Source: Deltaproteobacteria bacterium (GTDB lineage Bacteria > Desulfobacterota > Desulfomonilia > Desulfomonilales > Desulfomonilaceae). From it: a stretch of DNA of 61,371 nucleotides. Where the stretch lies: contig JAJYDQ010000014.1 in NCBI GenBank assembly GCA_021777225.1, forward strand, positions 1-61,371, in the 5' to 3' direction. Under the pieces are notes generated by a model that saw nothing but the letters and a program-made list of their open reading frames with translations, did not search any database and was not told the DNA's origin. Made by a program: the position numbers and the translations under genes. Below, one piece after another: positions 7,211 through 17,059 of this stretch; position 1 is the stretch's first letter, and every line of letters starts with the position of its first letter.

Positions 7211-7909
7211 CTATACGAGCAGATACTTTCTCATCACCTCTTCATTTTCTTGTAAATCTTTTATCGCTCCTTGGTACCTTATGACGCCGTTATCCAGGAT
7301 ATAACCTCGATCACTTAGGCCCAAGGCTGTTTTCTGGTTCTGTTCCGCCAGGAGAATGGTTAGACCAGCGTCTCTGAGCGCCCGGATACGATGTTCCAGC
7401 ATATCGACAATCATCGGGGCCAGTCCTTCGGTGGGTTCGTCCAATAAAAGCAGTTCAGGGTTGGTGACCAGGGCCCTGGCTATAGTAAGCATTTGCTGCT
7501 CGCCGCCACTGAGCAGGCCAGCTTTGCGGGATCTGATGTGTTTAAGTGGTTGAAAAAAATCATACACACGGTCCCTATTCCAGGAATCAGATTTTTCAAT
7601 CCGTCTCTCCGATATCTCAAGATTTTCATCGACAGTAAGATCAAAGAAAACCCGTCTATCGTCCGGAACAAATCCCATGCCCATCCTTGCGATAAGATAA
7701 GGTTTCTGTCCTGTGATGTTTTCATCCTTGAATCTTATGGATCCCTGGCGGGGCGGAACCAATCCCATAATACTCTTCATAGTGGTGCTTTTACCTGCGC
7801 CATTACGTCCAAGCAGGCAAACTATCTCTCCCCTGTTTACGGTGAGTGATAACCCAAATAGAATATGGCTTGATCCATAAAAAGATTGGATTCCGTCAAC
7901 CTGAAGCAT
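7211..7909 (-). CDS. livF: Branched-chain amino acid-type ABC transporter ATPase (LivF-like)
   Basis: One of two cytoplasmic ATPases of a Liv-type importer, 232 residues, normal for LivF. Walker A is GRNGAGKST near residue 35, the signature is LSGGEQQ, and Walker B is LLLLDEPTEGLAP, the Glu-Gly-Leu form typical of LivF. It is the last gene of the operon livK-H-M-G-F, starting 3 bases after livG ends. The substrate could be amino acids, amides or aromatic/short acids; sequence alone does not decide. Confidence 0.94.
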   Translation of the reverse strand: MLQVDGIQSFYGSSHILFGLSLTVNRGEIVCLLGRNGAGKSTTMKSIMGLVPPRQGSIRFKDENITGQKPYLIARMGMGFVPDDRRVFFDLTVDENLEISERRIEKSDSWNRDRVYDFFQPLKHIRSRKAGLLSGGEQQMLTIARALVTNPELLLLDEPTEGLAPMIVDMLEHRIRALRDAGLTILLAEQNQKTALGLSDRGYILDNGVIRYQGAIKDLQENEEVMRKYLLV

Positions 7910-7912
7910 CGC

Positions 7913-8647
7913 TTAGCTCCCACCCAAATAGGCTTCCCGCACTTGTTCGTTGTCCTTGACCTCTTGAGGGGTCCCCTGGACAATGGATACACCTTGCCGC
8001 ATGACCATTACCCTGTTAGCAAACGAAAAGACCAGTTCAATGTCATGTTCGCAAAACAGGATGGTAAGCCCGAGATCAGAGTTTAGATATTCAAGCAATT
8101 TGATTGTGGAAGCTGTTTCATCCGGCGCCATTCCCGCCGTGGGCTCATCCAAAATGAGAAGCTCAGGATTAGCGCCAAGCGCAATGGCTATCTCCAGGAC
8201 TTTTCGCTCTCCGTGTGACAGAGAACCACTTGCTCTATTTTCCACATTTGACAGTCCCACACTCTTGAGTATTTCTCTCGTTTCTTCAACTGCGACGCGT
8301 TTGGAAGGCGTGATTAGGTCAAACGCTCGTCTTAACCGGGAAAGAACAGACACCTGAACGTTTTCAAACACTGTCAATCGATTGAAGACATTAACGATCT
8401 GAAAAGACATGCTTAAGCCGCGTCTACAAATTAGATATGACGCCAGACCTCCAATATCTTTCCCTTTGAAAATGATCCGGCCTTTATCAGGCGCCAGGCG
8501 TCCCGCTATCAGTCCAAACAGTGTGCTCTTTCCAGCTCCATTCGGGCCAATTACGGCGACGATCTCGCCACGTTCTACTTCCAGGTTGGCATTCTTTACC
8601 GCCAGGAACCGATCGAAGGATTTCTGAACGTCTTTAACGCTTAACAT
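7913..8647 (-). CDS. livG: Branched-chain amino acid-type ABC transporter ATPase (LivG-like)
   Basis: Second ATPase of the Liv-type importer, 244 residues. Walker A is GPNGAGKSTLFGL, the signature reads LSHGERK (the LSHGE form seen in many LivG-like proteins) and Walker B is LLILDEPTAGMAP. A clear AGGAGGA lies seven bases before the ATG. It abuts livM upstream with no spacer and livF downstream with a 3-base gap, consistent with one polycistronic message. Confidence 0.94.
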   Translation of the reverse strand: MLSVKDVQKSFDRFLAVKNANLEVERGEIVAVIGPNGAGKSTLFGLIAGRLAPDKGRIIFKGKDIGGLASYLICRRGLSMSFQIVNVFNRLTVFENVQVSVLSRLRRAFDLITPSKRVAVEETREILKSVGLSNVENRASGSLSHGERKVLEIAIALGANPELLILDEPTAGMAPDETASTIKLLEYLNSDLGLTILFCEHDIELVFSFANRVMVMRQGVSIVQGTPQEVKDNEQVREAYLGGS

Positions 8648-9607
8648 TCATCTATCCTCCTCTGTCGATACGTCTGGTCTCTTGAAAAACCCTTCTAGAT
8701 AACCAATTACACCTTCGGGCAAGAAAAAGATCAACAGCATGAGTATTATCGCCAATACTGTCGTCCAGTATTCCGTGTAAACGCCCACCATGGTCCTCAA
8801 AGACACAATTATCGCCGCCCCCAGCATAGGTCCAAGGAAAGTAAACCAACCACCGAGCAGACACATGATAAGAAATTCAAGTGACAGGGTCCACGACATC
8901 AGGTCCGGGAAGGCGGAACCCTCTACAGTCACAAAAAGGACTCCGGCCACACCGGCGAAAAAACCAGCTATTACTTGTGTCACCAGTTGATGCGCCCTAA
9001 CATGAACCCCTATGGTTTCGCTTCTCTCAGGGTTATCGCGAATAGCCTGAAGGATTTGACCGAATGGAGAATTAAGGATGACATACATCAATCCTAAAGA
9101 AACTACCGAAACTATTAATGTAAAATAGAATGACCCGCTAACTGAACTGATTAACGAAGGTATTGGGACCCCGTGTAGTCCGTCATCGCCACCAGTGAAT
9201 GAATACCATCTGTATACGACGACCCAAACAAGTGAACCTAGCGAGAGCTGCAACATTCCAAAGTACAGTTTTGACAAACGAACACAGATAAAACCCATTA
9301 CAAGAGCCAAAACAGCCGACGCGAATGGCGCTGTGAAAAAACACAACGCAATGGGCAGGTTTGTTTTTATAAGCATTAAGGAAACGCTATAGGCCCCTAC
9401 CCCATAAAACACAGCGTGGTGGAATTGATACATGCCCCCGAAACCAAGGGCCACGTTCAGGCTCGTAGCCATAAGCCCGGTAATCAGAATCAAAGCTAAC
9501 AAATACGTAAAAAACCGTGGCAGGAACTGCGGGCACAAAGCAAGAACAATTAGAACGGCCATGCCGAGAGTAAACCATTTCAGTCGGGATAATCCGTCAG
9601 GCGGCAC
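8648..9607 (-). CDS. livM: Branched-chain amino acid-type ABC transporter permease (LivM-like)
   Basis: Inner-membrane permease of the importer, with about nine hydrophobic helices and the LivM-family segment GFGGMYQFHHAVFYGVGAYS. The longest reading frame begins at a TTG (9625) inside the livH 3' end with no ribosome binding site. A GTG at 9607 has GAGGGG six bases upstream and keeps the first helix, so I chose that start (319 residues). It pairs with LivH to form the heterodimeric channel. Confidence 0.92.
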   Translation of the reverse strand: MPPDGLSRLKWFTLGMAVLIVLALCPQFLPRFFTYLLALILITGLMATSLNVALGFGGMYQFHHAVFYGVGAYSVSLMLIKTNLPIALCFFTAPFASAVLALVMGFICVRLSKLYFGMLQLSLGSLVWVVVYRWYSFTGGDDGLHGVPIPSLISSVSGSFYFTLIVSVVSLGLMYVILNSPFGQILQAIRDNPERSETIGVHVRAHQLVTQVIAGFFAGVAGVLFVTVEGSAFPDLMSWTLSLEFLIMCLLGGWFTFLGPMLGAAIIVSLRTMVGVYTEYWTTVLAIILMLLIFFLPEGVIGYLEGFFKRPDVSTEEDR

Positions 9608-9618
9608 AGTCAACCCCT

Positions 9619-10515
9619 CTACCAAGTCGCTCTAAGCAGCCCTTTAGGCCGAAAGATAAGGACAATCACAACAGCGGCGTAAGGGAATACTATTGAAAAC
9701 TGTGGCAAGATCATTATCCCCATCGAGTCCGTGAGTCCGAAAATAAGGGCCCCAAGCAATGCCCCCCAAACGTTGCCTAAGCCGCCGATAATCACTATCA
9801 GAAAGGCCTCCATGATAATGGTATGATCCATACCCTGGGTTATGTTCTGTGTGGGAGCGACTAGGGCCCCGCCAAGCCCTGCTAGAAAACAGCCAATAAC
9901 AAACACGGATGCGAAGACCCAACTCACGTTAATTCCCACAGCGCCTACCATGTCGCGGTCAACAGCGGCAGCCCGCGCTATCTTGCCAATTTTCGTGCGC
10001 TGAGTAAGAAACCACAAACCAACAGCCACAATCGGGCCGATACTCAGCAGGAAAAGATTGTATTTTGGGAAAGGCATACCGAGTATTGGTAGAGATCCCT
10101 GAAAAATCACGGGTGGAGTCAGGGAGCGATACTCTGAGCCCCATATCAATTTTACAGCATCGTGGAAAATCAGCATCAAGGCGAATGTAAACAGAAGAAG
10201 CATAAGGTGTTCTCTGTCATATAAATGACAGAAAAGCCCTCGCTCCGTCGCCAGGCTGATAATGGCCACGCCTATAGGAGCGAGCAATATGGCGAACCAA
10301 AACCCGATAGGACTATTCCCGAAAAGCGTCGCAACGGAATAACACAGAAAAGCTCCAAGCATGTAAAGCGATCCGTGAGCGACATTCGGGATCCTGAGCA
10401 CTCCAAGGACTAAGCTCAATCCCGATGAGACAATGAAAAGTATAGTCGTCCGGCTAAGCCCCACGATGAATTGCTGAATAAGACCATTAAATGTGATCGT
10501 CGTCGAAAAATCCAT
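9619..10515 (-). CDS. livH: Branched-chain amino acid-type ABC transporter permease (LivH-like)
   Basis: A 298-residue inner-membrane permease, about eight helices, with LivH-typical motifs: the N-terminal GLSLVLGVLRIPNVAHGSLY and the later VIIGGLGNVWGALLGALIFG loop that contacts the ATPases. It follows the binding-protein gene after 18 bases, and its stop codon lies about 12 bases from the likely livM start. Confidence 0.94.
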   Translation of the reverse strand: MDFSTTITFNGLIQQFIVGLSRTTILFIVSSGLSLVLGVLRIPNVAHGSLYMLGAFLCYSVATLFGNSPIGFWFAILLAPIGVAIISLATERGLFCHLYDREHLMLLLFTFALMLIFHDAVKLIWGSEYRSLTPPVIFQGSLPILGMPFPKYNLFLLSIGPIVAVGLWFLTQRTKIGKIARAAAVDRDMVGAVGINVSWVFASVFVIGCFLAGLGGALVAPTQNITQGMDHTIIMEAFLIVIIGGLGNVWGALLGALIFGLTDSMGIMILPQFSIVFPYAAVVIVLIFRPKGLLRATW

Positions 10516-10533
10516 ATCGATAATCTTGGGTAA

Positions 10534-11754
10534 CTAATCCTGTGATCTAGCTTTTTTGATGTCTTCTATGGAAGGCATAATTTCTTCCGCTGGGATGGTC
10601 ACTATATCTGTCGCTATAAGAAAATCATAACCAGGGACCTTTTTGGTGACGCCCATGAACATGGGAAGCATTAACTGGTTGTCAAACTGCCTTACAGTCA
10701 ACTTCCCTATGGGACTGTCAATGGTCATTCCGGACAGTGCGTCAGCAAATTTCTCAGGGTCTACTTTGCCCGCCTTTTCATACGCCTTGGCAATAAAGTT
10801 CGCAGTATACCAGCCTATGAGGCTTCCAAACGAGGGGTAGCGGCTGTAAGCCTTCTTGAATTCCTCGACGAAGACCTTGTTTTCAGGAGTTTCCGGGTAA
10901 TAGAAATAATAGTTAGCTGTGCCAATGACTCCCTGCGGGGCGTCAAGTCCCAGTGGTCGCAGAGTGGACAATTCGGTGGCCGTATGCATGTAGATTGCGA
11001 CCTTCCTATTGAAGCCGGTGTTTTTGGCGGCCTTTAGAAACGGAATACAGCCGGCGCCGCCAGTAGCCACGATCACGGCATCTGGTTTCGCTGAAAGGAT
11101 CGAAGTAATATAAGGTGTGAAATCAGGTTCACCCACTTTCCACCATGACTGCCCGACCAACTTTACGTCAGGTTTGATTTTTTTGAGATGGTTCCAGACT
11201 GCGTCTGCTATAGCGTGTCCGTACTCGTAGTCATCACCCGCAATCCAGTATTTTACAAATGGACGTTTCGCCAGACCGATTGCCGCGGCTTTTCCGATCA
11301 TCTCGGTATTTTCATTCATCGAGAAAACAAACTTGTGGCCCTTGGAGCCGGTAATATTGGAACTCTTTCCGTATGTCACAATAAACGGGATTTTTTCCTT
11401 TTTGGCAAGATCGGAAACCGCCAAAGAGACTGCGCTATTGATGGTACCTAGCAAAAGGTTGACGTTTTCTCTCATTATTAACTCTTTAGCTTCGGTCAGT
11501 CCCAAATCAACCTTGAATTTGTCATCTCTGGTGACAAAGGTGATCTTTTTCCCAAGGACACCGCCATTGGCGTTAATTTTGTTCAAAGCCAACTTGAATC
11601 CATCCAGGACGTCTAATCCGTAAGAACTCGGAGGACCGCTATATGTGTCTATGATCCCAACCTTGATGTCGCTTGCGGCAAATGTTAGAGTACTTGAGCC
11701 GATCATGCTGGCCAGCAAACATACAAACATCATGTAAGAAACGATCCTTCTCAT
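10534..11754 (-). CDS. Liv-type ABC transporter substrate-binding protein
   Basis: Periplasmic binding protein of the Leu/Ile/Val (peripla_BP_6) family, 406 residues with a Sec signal peptide ending near LTFAAS. The mature start DIKVGIIDTYSGPPSSYG is the classical first strand and ligand loop. It is the first gene of the operon, behind an excellent GGAGGT six bases from the ATG. The family binds aliphatic amino acids, amides, urea and aromatic or short carboxylic acids; I cannot tell which. It is a distant paralogue of the binding protein at 56904. Confidence 0.93.
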   Translation of the reverse strand: MRRIVSYMMFVCLLASMIGSSTLTFAASDIKVGIIDTYSGPPSSYGLDVLDGFKLALNKINANGGVLGKKITFVTRDDKFKVDLGLTEAKELIMRENVNLLLGTINSAVSLAVSDLAKKEKIPFIVTYGKSSNITGSKGHKFVFSMNENTEMIGKAAAIGLAKRPFVKYWIAGDDYEYGHAIADAVWNHLKKIKPDVKLVGQSWWKVGEPDFTPYITSILSAKPDAVIVATGGAGCIPFLKAAKNTGFNRKVAIYMHTATELSTLRPLGLDAPQGVIGTANYYFYYPETPENKVFVEEFKKAYSRYPSFGSLIGWYTANFIAKAYEKAGKVDPEKFADALSGMTIDSPIGKLTVRQFDNQLMLPMFMGVTKKVPGYDFLIATDIVTIPAEEIMPSIEDIKKARSQD

Positions 11755-13973: not shown

Positions 13974-14235
13974 GCATCCGACCTTTCTTGGACTTTAAAT
14001 TCCGTGACAAATGATCTGGTTGCGGAACCACAAAAGTGGGATAATATCATGAAAACTCACGCGGCTCAACAATGTCGTCGGTTCCGTTGAGACGCCTAAT
14101 TTATGCCGACAGGGTTAAAATAATCCAATGTTCGAACCCTATCTTGTGTCAGATGACCTCTTTAGGACATAAAGGAAGCGTTAAACTGGAGTCAAAGCTC
14201 CTTTCTCATTCTTGCTCTGTACTGGGAAAAGACTA

Positions 14236-15270
14236 GTGAAGAAATCAACTCGAATATTTCTAGGCTCATTGTCGCTTATAGTGTTTATTTTGGCTCTTAC
14301 CGACTGCAATTCAAAACAGGGTGAGCAAACAAAATCGACCCCGATCCCTGAACAAAAATTCAAAATAGCCACACTCGTTAAAGTGGATGGCATCCCCTGG
14401 TTTGCAAGAATGCGGGTTGGGGTGGAGAAATTCGCTCGAGAAACCGGTCAGGACAGTTTTACACTTGGACCAGCGAGAGCCGATGGCGCTCTGCAAGCTC
14501 AAATGGTCGACGAACTGATCGAACAGGGTGTGAACGCTATTTGTATTGTGCCTTTTTCTGTTCCCGCAGTAAAACCTGCCCTCAAAAGGGCTAAAGAAAA
14601 AGGAGTTGTCATCGTGGCCCAGGAAGCTTGCAGACTCGATAGCGCTAATGTCATCATCGAACCATTTGATAACAAGGCGTGGGGTCGGCATCTTATGGAC
14701 GAACTCGCATCGAGTATGAATCAACAAGGTGATTACGCGATTATTTTGGGCAGTTACGATAGTCAGTCCCACATGGCATGGCGTGATGCGGCCGTTTCTC
14801 ACCAACTTGAGCAATATCCCGAGATGACGCTGGTAACAGACGCGGTCGAAGATCATGACAATGCCGCACGCTCTTATGCACAAGCGAAAGACCTTCTTAC
14901 CAGATTTCCTAACATAAAGGGAATATTGGGACTAACCATGGTTTCATGCCCCTCTTCCGCTCTCGCCACAGAAACTCTGGGGCTCCGGAACAAGGTTAGT
15001 GTGGTGGGGGTGTCTCTTGTTTCAGGTTGCAAATCCTATCTGGAAACAGGCTCAATCAAAACTATCAGCTTCTGGGATCCTGCGGAAGCGGGATATGCGA
15101 TGAATGAGGCAGCCCTTAAATTGCTTCAGGGGAAGAAGATTCACACCGGAACAAACCTTAAGGCAAAAGGATACCATAATCTGAGGCATGATAAGCTCAA
15201 ACACAACCTATTTTTCGGGCAAGGATGGATAGATGTAACCAAAAAAAATATGGCCAATTATCCCTATTAA
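14236..15270 (+). CDS. Periplasmic sugar-type binding lipoprotein (Peripla_BP_4)
   Basis: A 344-residue periplasmic binding protein of the ribose/AI-2 type. The reading frame extends to a TTG at 14212, but a GTG at 14236 has GGGAAAAG just upstream and gives a normal lipoprotein signal ending ALTDC, so I use it. The mature part shows two Rossmann-like lobes: FKIATLVKVDGIPWFARM at the N-terminus, VNAICIVPFSVPAVKPAL, and AIILGSYDSQSH. No sugar ABC permease or ATPase lies nearby. Instead a receptor cyclase starts 31 bases downstream, so this protein may be a ligand sensor subunit rather than a transport component (inference). Confidence 0.85.
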   Translation: MKKSTRIFLGSLSLIVFILALTDCNSKQGEQTKSTPIPEQKFKIATLVKVDGIPWFARMRVGVEKFARETGQDSFTLGPARADGALQAQMVDELIEQGVNAICIVPFSVPAVKPALKRAKEKGVVIVAQEACRLDSANVIIEPFDNKAWGRHLMDELASSMNQQGDYAIILGSYDSQSHMAWRDAAVSHQLEQYPEMTLVTDAVEDHDNAARSYAQAKDLLTRFPNIKGILGLTMVSCPSSALATETLGLRNKVSVVGVSLVSGCKSYLETGSIKTISFWDPAEAGYAMNEAALKLLQGKKIHTGTNLKAKGYHNLRHDKLKHNLFFGQGWIDVTKKNMANYPY

Positions 15271-15301
15271 ACTAAAGCAATGACGCAAACTGTCTGAATC
15301 G

Positions 15302-17059
15302 ATGAAAACACCAACCGGACTAAAGAAGCTTAACATAAAGTTGACCGTAATCCTGGGTTTTGTGCTGATGCTCGCGTTAATCATCATAATCGCTGCAATG
15401 GGATACCTAGCTCTTAGAGAGGCAATCCGAGACGCTACCCTTTATAGCGCCCTATCCCGTGACACTAATCTGGCTCATGATATCGGCAACAGTATGCTTA
15501 TTCTTAATGGAGCGCTGGACAGCTACCTGGCAAACCGTGACGTTCAGTCGGTCTGGGACGTTGATTATCGGTTGGCATTAACCAGACGCATGGCGAAAAT
15601 GGCCCACAAATCCAACCTTAATCCTGAAATTCGCGATATTCTGGTCCGAGTTGACGATATTTTGGCCACATTCAATCAAAAATTTAACCAATTAACTGAG
15701 TTAGATGCTAACTTGATTCAAGTTCAGCGGACAACACCGAGTAATATAACTGAGATTAAAGAATTATCCAAACAGAGACAAGCTCTTCAAAACCTTTTCC
15801 AGATAGCCGCCATTAAGGTTTCCCACAATGTTGAAAGCGCCCGAGACGCCATAAAGGTGCAACAGGAATCAATAGACACGAGGATTCAGAATTCATTTCG
15901 AACAACAATGCTTGTCGCCGTTTTGACGGTTGCAGCAGCTATTGTTATCGCCCTGGTCGTTGCGCTTCTTTTTGTAAGGCTTATCACAAAGCCGGTCGGC
16001 GTCCTCGAACAGATAGTTAGGCGCAGTCCATCAATTGCTTTCAGATTTAGCGCAGCGCCTGGCCGGCCAGTCGAATACGTATCTGAAAATGTTATCGAAT
16101 TTGGTTACTCCGCCGATGATTTTTACTCAGGTCGTGTCAAGCTTGTTGATGTCCTCCATCCTGAAGATAGAGAAATTGTAGCCACTAAATTACACGACCT
16201 TACTACCGCTAAAAGTTCCGACAGGGAATTCAACCAGGAATACCGGATAATTACTGGTGCAGGGGCAACCTGCTGGCTCGATGAAAGAATGTGGGTTGTC
16301 CTCAACGATAAAGGCGATATTACTCATTACGAGGGTATCGTTATTGATATCACCAAGCGTAAACTTGCTGAGGAGCGGCTCGAAAGAGAACAAGCAAGGA
16401 GGGTCTTCGTTCTTGAAACCTTTGGGTCATATCTTAGCGATGAAATTGTTGCCGAAATTCTTGAATCACCTGGTGGTATCAACCTTGGCGGAGAGTTACG
16501 TGAAATCGCTATACTGGTGTCTGACCTTCGAGGATTTACCAAAATTACAGAATCAATGGACTCCAGGAAGGTTTTGAAAATCCTGAATCGATATCTGGAG
16601 GTTATGACCGACATTATCCTTCGGTATAGTGGAACAATCGATGAATTTACAGGAGACGGGATACTGGTTTTCTTTGGAGCGCCAAGACAATTTGCTGACC
16701 ACGCGCGCAGGGCGGTCCTCTGCGCAATTGAGATGCAGAAAGCCATGGGACTATTAAATGAGGACAACGTCAAGCTTGGTTTACCAGAACTTAGCATGGG
16801 AATAGGAATTAATTGCGGAGAACTAGTCGTAGGAAACATCGGATCTAATAAGCGGAAAAAATATGGAGCTGTCGGCAGCCCGATTAACGTGGCTTTTCGG
16901 GTGCAAACCCAGACAACCGGAGGAGACATCCTTGTGACGGCCCCTGTCTACGAACGGGTCTCCTCCGATGTTGTCACCGGACCTGTTAGGAAGGTTGAGC
17001 TAAAAGGCATAGAGGGGCTTGTTACAATACATCAGGTAATAGGGCTCAGTAATACTTGA
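15302..17059 (+). CDS. Transmembrane receptor class III nucleotide cyclase with PAS domain
   Basis: A 585-residue membrane receptor. Helix 1 is at about 15-37, followed by a helical extracytoplasmic domain (about 40-195), helix 2 at about 202-227, a PAS domain at about 245-355 ending in the DITKRK linker, and a class III cyclase domain at about 395-580. Metal-binding Asp408 and Asp452 and the catalytic Asn529 and Arg533 are present. The two residues that normally select adenine (Lys/Asp) are Glu448 and Gly522, so whether it makes cAMP, cGMP or something else is open. It is probably co-transcribed with the binding lipoprotein immediately upstream. Confidence 0.88.
   Translation: MKTPTGLKKLNIKLTVILGFVLMLALIIIIAAMGYLALREAIRDATLYSALSRDTNLAHDIGNSMLILNGALDSYLANRDVQSVWDVDYRLALTRRMAKMAHKSNLNPEIRDILVRVDDILATFNQKFNQLTELDANLIQVQRTTPSNITEIKELSKQRQALQNLFQIAAIKVSHNVESARDAIKVQQESIDTRIQNSFRTTMLVAVLTVAAAIVIALVVALLFVRLITKPVGVLEQIVRRSPSIAFRFSAAPGRPVEYVSENVIEFGYSADDFYSGRVKLVDVLHPEDREIVATKLHDLTTAKSSDREFNQEYRIITGAGATCWLDERMWVVLNDKGDITHYEGIVIDITKRKLAEERLEREQARRVFVLETFGSYLSDEIVAEILESPGGINLGGELREIAILVSDLRGFTKITESMDSRKVLKILNRYLEVMTDIILRYSGTIDEFTGDGILVFFGAPRQFADHARRAVLCAIEMQKAMGLLNEDNVKLGLPELSMGIGINCGELVVGNIGSNKRKKYGAVGSPINVAFRVQTQTTGGDILVTAPVYERVSSDVVTGPVRKVELKGIEGLVTIHQVIGLSNT

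Follow-up and report, generated by a model that had tools for sequence, protein, structure and literature searches.

A solute-binding lipoprotein and a transmembrane class III cyclase as a candidate two-part receptor in Desulfobacterota

Overview of the pair

In a 61,371-nt stretch of a draft deltaproteobacterial genome (the stretch is hereafter called the window and is contig 134 of genome G000, 4.04 Mb, 97.6% complete), we identified a gene for a Peripla_BP_4 solute-binding lipoprotein that is followed closely, on the same strand, by a gene for a receptor with two transmembrane segments, a PAS domain and a class III cyclase domain (Table 1). We lean, with modest confidence, towards the view that the two products form a two-part receptor in which the binding protein gates the enzyme, probably a guanylyl cyclase; the docking, the ligand class, the nucleotide product and the direction of the switch are the parts of this proposal that we infer. 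The first-pass annotation had described the gene arrangement, and profile matches and hydropathy bore the description out. It had also placed an extracytoplasmic helical domain of about 155 residues in the receptor, and this domain came to about 165 residues in our analysis.

In the proposed mechanism, the ligand, a small sugar or deoxysugar, would be captured by the lipoprotein on the outer side of the inner membrane. In either its ligand-loaded or its unloaded form, the lipoprotein would dock on the sensor bundle of the cyclase. As the binding protein opens or closes, the sensor helices would shift, and the second transmembrane helix, followed by the PAS domain, would relay this shift to the geometry of the class III cyclase dimer. 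The enzyme would then probably make cGMP (cAMP, or both, could also be made), and the signal would be read by cNMP-binding effector proteins encoded elsewhere in the genome, where we counted eight cNMP-binding domains that could serve in this way.

Table 1. Positions in the window of the paired genes, their domains and the nearby Liv-type genes
Feature	Position	Strand	Evidence
Two Liv-type ATPases	7211-8647	-	
Two Liv-type permeases	8648-10515	-	
Peripla_BP_6 binding protein of Liv operon	10534-11754	-	
Peripla_BP_4 solute-binding lipoprotein, 344 aa	14236..15270	+	PF13407 E=1.6e-55
Lipobox-like LTDC, residues 21-24 (Cys24)	14296..14307	+	orthologue comparison
Intergenic gap, 31 bases (48-52 in three orthologous loci)	15271..15301	+	
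Transmembrane receptor cyclase, 585 aa	15302..17059	+	
First transmembrane segment, about residues 13-36	15338..15409	+	hydropathy
Extracytoplasmic helical sensor, residues 39-203	15416..15910	+	four helices in model
Second transmembrane segment, about residues 204-227	15911..15982	+	hydropathy
PAS_3 domain, residues 259-347	16076..16342	+	PF08447 E=1.4e-13
Class III cyclase domain (Guanylate_cyc), residues 400-577	16499..17032	+	PF00211 E=2.4e-19

The lipoprotein and its putative ligand

The PF13407 profile spanned its whole length (1-258 of 258) on the lipoprotein, with a score of 188.9 bits against a cut-off of 35.1. The gene starts with GTG, and an alternative in-frame TTG at 14212 is possible. 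A signal peptide is present, and Cys24 was invariant in six orthologues, where the motif reads LTDC, FTDC, LTAC or VAAC; the Asp that precedes the Cys in LTDC is atypical for a lipobox, and orthologues with LTAC and VAAC exist. The closest solved structure was 5bra from Ochrobactrum (285 bits), and XylFII was also recovered as a sequence relative (E = 3.5e-6). The viral contigs that we searched contained no relatives of the binding protein. The NCBIfam LsrB model scored 95.6 bits, below its cut-off of 384. The TorT family was absent among the NCBIfam matches, and on that ground we rejected an identification of the lipoprotein as TorT.

Outside the genus, the closest relatives were alphaproteobacterial ABC binding proteins with 41-48% identity. 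In all five of the plasmid loci inspected, the binding protein was encoded with a DeoR regulator, a CUT2 ATPase, two permeases, and deoC and/or a ribokinase, which together make a deoxyribose-type operon. The lipoprotein and these deoxyribose-type relatives have an N-lobe pocket motif in common (VKVDGI.WF, and EA at 130-131), whereas the C-lobe pocket differed consistently between the two groups (T234, V259, S260 and H179 versus P, T, G and Q). From these sequence comparisons, a small sugar or deoxysugar is the likely ligand, and to name deoxyribose itself would be a guess.

Two further candidate ligands were not favoured. The first-pass annotation had suggested AI-2, and we set this aside because two of the four residues that we take to be the AI-2 contacts of LsrB (K35, D116, D166 and Q167) are changed in the lipoprotein, and because its nearest relatives belong to deoxyribose-type operons. 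At these positions the K is kept and D116 is replaced conservatively by E, with D166 changed to S and Q167 to H. Ribose fared no better, as none of the positions equivalent to R90, R141, N190, D215 and Q235 of E. coli RbsB was kept.

Transporter context

According to the first-pass annotation, no ABC permease or ATPase lies nearby. This held for the CUT2 family, of which we found neither a permease nor an ATPase gene near the pair, but not for ABC genes at large, as a complete Liv/HAAT operon occupies positions 7211-11754 of the minus strand, 2.5-7 kb upstream of the pair, from which it is separated by nhaA and a DedA-family gene. Since this operon belongs to a different transporter family and has its own binding protein, we regard these ABC genes as unrelated to the pair.

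We also considered that the lipoprotein might be an orphan transport protein that feeds the CUT2 transporter encoded on contig 68, or some other permease, in which case its adjacency to the cyclase would reflect operonic bystanding or co-regulation, and the cyclase would sense another signal through its own helical domain. This would agree with the fact that the nearest relatives outside the genus all serve CUT2 ABC operons, where inspected, and with the behaviour of McpS-type helical domains, which bind small organic acids directly, McpS being the top structural match of the sensor. However, the contig-68 permease (34% identical to a deoxyribose-type permease) is the only CUT2 permease in the genome, and its operon includes a double ATPase and a Peripla_BP_4 protein of its own (about 25% identity to the lipoprotein), which leaves the lipoprotein without an evident transporter. 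The first-pass annotation had named a confident match of the lipoprotein to an ABC operon elsewhere in the genome as a refutation of the pairing; this check did not refute it, as there was no ABC operon without a binding protein that could claim the lipoprotein. Furthermore, no catabolic genes accompany the pair, which is kept together while its neighbours change (see below), and the lack of deoC in the genome agrees with a role in sensing. We consider it rather unlikely that the lipoprotein serves transport, and prefer to see it as the ligand-binding half of the receptor.

A third Peripla_BP_4 match in this genome (contig 136, L055:6047-6811) covered profile positions 141-256 only; the ORF, of 254 aa, is without much of the first lobe, and could be what is left of a gene or a gene with a frameshift.

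The receptor and its predicted product

Hydropathy placed the hydrophobic stretches of the cyclase at residues 9-43 and 198-236. The extracytoplasmic region between them was modelled as helices, and no Cache or PAS match was found between the transmembrane segments. The structure model, built from four sequences only, was poor overall (pLDDT 52), with values of 65-87 in the sensor part. McpS was the top structural match of the sensor model (Z 18.1). The model also matched the LytS sensor from XylFII-LytS (Z 16.3 and rmsd 1.7 Å over 122/122 residues) and TorS of TorS-TorT (Z 13.7), each of which is a site where a binding protein docks, but because a designed helical bundle reached Z 16.0 in the same list and four-helix bundles are common, the fold match to LytS and TorS is suggestive only. 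When the sequence profile of the sensor was compared with the PDB, nothing credible was retrieved, and neither LytS nor TorS was found. The weak profile relatives of the sensor were 4HB/HBM chemoreceptors (E about 1e-9), alongside which we saw no binding-protein gene.

Aligned to Cya2 (2w01), a guanylyl cyclase of Synechocystis, the catalytic domain shows the metal residues D408 and D452 and the transition-state residues N529 and R533. The class III catalytic residues are thus present. The first-pass annotation had spoken of a cyclic nucleotide output, and the specificity residues point more narrowly to cGMP. These residues, E448 and G522, match those of Cya2, in which the E-G pair is the mark of a guanylyl cyclase (PMC4215837), and were identical in all five orthologues read; the same E/G pair was common to all cyclase paralogues aligned from the family. 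Cya2 was also the best natural PDB match of the domain, at 181 bits compared with 107 for the cAMP-forming CyaB. A Phe here replaces the Tyr that adjoins the catalytic Arg in Cya2, where the Tyr enhances guanylyl cyclase activity. Because the catalytic domain carries the Cya2 E/G pair, we predict that cGMP is the likelier product. Phage records contained generic cyclase domains only, at about 34%.

Most bacterial class III cyclases make cAMP, and it is conceivable that the lipoprotein docks on the cyclase as proposed, with an enzyme that mainly makes cAMP. That engineered and natural E/G enzymes can retain affinity for both nucleotides (PMC4215837) would also allow for this. However, at the specificity positions the enzyme has the E and G of Cya2 instead of K and D/T, and the bit scores given above favour Cya2 over CyaB; a mainly cAMP-forming enzyme seems to us improbable, and we retain a binding-protein-gated guanylyl cyclase as the preferred reading.

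Conservation of the pair

As the first-pass annotation had suggested, we examined whether the adjacency is conserved, and found that the pair is kept within the genus. The binding protein was present in six of seven same-genus genomes (65-100% identity), and the cyclase lay downstream of it in each of the five whose contig continues. The complete pair, on one strand with 31-52 bases between the genes, was found in the window, G001, G003 and G004; the G006 contig breaks off after the start of the cyclase gene, which is no more than about 65 bases from the binding protein. Only 200 bases follow the binding-protein gene on the G002 contig, and the 3′ end of the cyclase gene lies at one end of a different contig. 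Neither the binding protein nor the sensor of this receptor was present in G005, a genome that is 82% complete. Upstream neighbours varied by subgroup, with a DedA gene in the window, G002 and G003, and other genes in G001 and G004. Across the phylum (approximately 395 genomes), orthologues of the binding protein were confined to this genus and sensor matches elsewhere were weak at most, the co-occurrence of this orthologue with the sensor being limited to one genus.

Both genes were under purifying selection (dN/dS 0.10-0.18), which argues that neither is a chance ORF, and dS within the genus was about 1.4-1.5, near saturation. A chance joining of the two genes in the genus ancestor, with no separation since, would suit the restriction of the pair to one genus, but we consider this very unlikely, as the pair has been kept with low dN/dS while dS approached saturation and the upstream order changed, and as a second, unrelated pair has the same arrangement (see below).

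When the window was compared with G003, DNA identity at about 15150-16350 was 61-77%, versus about 85-95% for most of the flanking coding DNA. This block opens in the 3′-terminal part of the binding-protein gene, spans the sensor and stops where the PAS domain stops, which suggests that part of the receptor was exchanged or has evolved faster, and that most of the binding protein did not share this change. It looks as if one allele of the sensor had replaced another. The block, the restriction of the pair to one genus, the generic fold of the sensor, the poor model of the whole cyclase and the Phe in place of the Cya2 Tyr weigh against the proposed two-part receptor. Neither promoter nor terminator signals exceeded chance.

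Comparison with known systems

Control of receptors by binding proteins is already established, as solute-binding proteins drive chemoreceptors, sensor kinases, c-di-GMP enzymes and Ser/Thr kinases (PMC9602780; PMC6321045). In the literature on binding proteins with adenylate or guanylate cyclases, largely open-access, we found no described case, and a class III cyclase as the target would be new with respect to the literature found.

The D-xylose sensor XylFII-LytS of Clostridium (5xsj, 5xsd) consists of a Peripla_BP_4-type sugar-binding protein and an all-helical sensor. Both of its partners resemble those of the pair, the binding protein by sequence and the sensor by model, and docking is known for XylFII-LytS; its output is a histidine kinase, whereas that of the pair is a PAS-linked class III cyclase. 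TorT-TorS also combines a type I fold binding protein with a helical periplasmic sensor, to which our model matched as described above, but its ligand is TMAO, its output is a histidine kinase, and the lipoprotein has no TorT family match. The first-pass annotation had likened the pair to LuxP-LuxQ, and there a ribose-binding-protein-like ligand sensor does gate a membrane receptor, as we propose for the pair. However, the LuxQ sensor has a PAS/Cache-type fold and a kinase/phosphatase output, whereas the sensor of the pair was modelled as four helices, and the LsrB-type AI-2 contacts are not all kept in the lipoprotein. Because the sensor models as an all-helical bundle, XylFII-LytS and TorT-TorS are the nearer analogues.

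In systems of the NspS-MbaA type, a binding protein controls a second-messenger enzyme. The output of these c-di-GMP receptors, a class listed in PMC9602780, is GGDEF/EAL, in contrast to the class III cyclase found here. Synechocystis Cya2, although nearest in its catalytic domain and alike in its E-G pair, has a different sensor input and the Tyr that is Phe in the cyclase of the pair. Animal natriuretic-peptide receptor guanylyl cyclases and trypanosome receptor adenylyl cyclases have a Venus flytrap outside and a class III cyclase inside (PMC6027212), but their flytrap is fused in one chain, whereas here it is a lipoprotein of its own, which a further, modelled helical bundle would receive. 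Finally, the deoxyribose-type CUT2 binding proteins (5bra), the closest relatives of the lipoprotein and alike in the N-lobe pocket motifs, have ABC permeases and an ATPase, which the lipoprotein lacks, and differ from it in the C-lobe pocket. If the proposal is true, bacterial cGMP signalling, the inputs of which are mostly unknown, would gain defined extracellular ligands, and the pair would be a two-piece bacterial parallel to the Venus-flytrap-plus-cyclase logic of animal hormone receptors.

A second binding-protein/cyclase pair

On contig 104 of the same genome (L076:2161-5285), a gene for an NMT1-type binding protein overlaps a dCache-HAMP-cyclase gene by four bases (ATGA), and this unit was intact in 11 genomes from five genera of the family. 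Relatives of the NMT1 protein were found in 81 of 395 phylum genomes, and a homologous dCache receptor was encoded directly downstream in 18 of the 20 loci fetched. The output was a class III cyclase in three of these 18 receptors; the remaining 15, of 641-665 aa, had no cyclase match, and SpoIIE was confirmed by Pfam in all three of those tested; in other families of the phylum, a SpoIIE-type phosphatase seems to be the usual output of the homologous units. The NMT1 binding protein travels with the sensor and not with the output, as would be expected of a protein that has the sensor as its target, and the existence of a second, unrelated binding-protein/cyclase pair makes the general idea of gating more credible.

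More broadly, it may be that receptor guanylyl cyclases in Desulfobacterota sense their ligands through separable solute-binding proteins, with the layout of the animal natriuretic-peptide receptor split over two chains. This arrangement would have originated on two or more occasions (a helical sensor with Peripla_BP_4, and dCache with NMT1), in modules that swap SpoIIE and cyclase outputs while the binding protein and the sensor stay joined. We see the case for this generalization as evenly balanced. With their exchanged outputs, the NMT1 units lend themselves to a comparative test of the coupling between binding proteins and sensors.

HAMP-only, CHASE2 and other cyclase paralogues had unrelated genes upstream, which indicates that such pairing is not general to the cyclases of the family. 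In three loci (L074 and L075 of G017 and G010, and L068 of G011), a HAMP-type cyclase paralogue lay directly downstream of a gene that looks like a glycerate-2-kinase type, an adjacency that recurs in several family genomes. In two others (L072 and L073, of G011 and G013), the gene for a secreted protein precedes a CHASE2-cyclase gene; the secreted protein of L072 matches DUF4384, and the upstream gene of L073 is alike in start and size.
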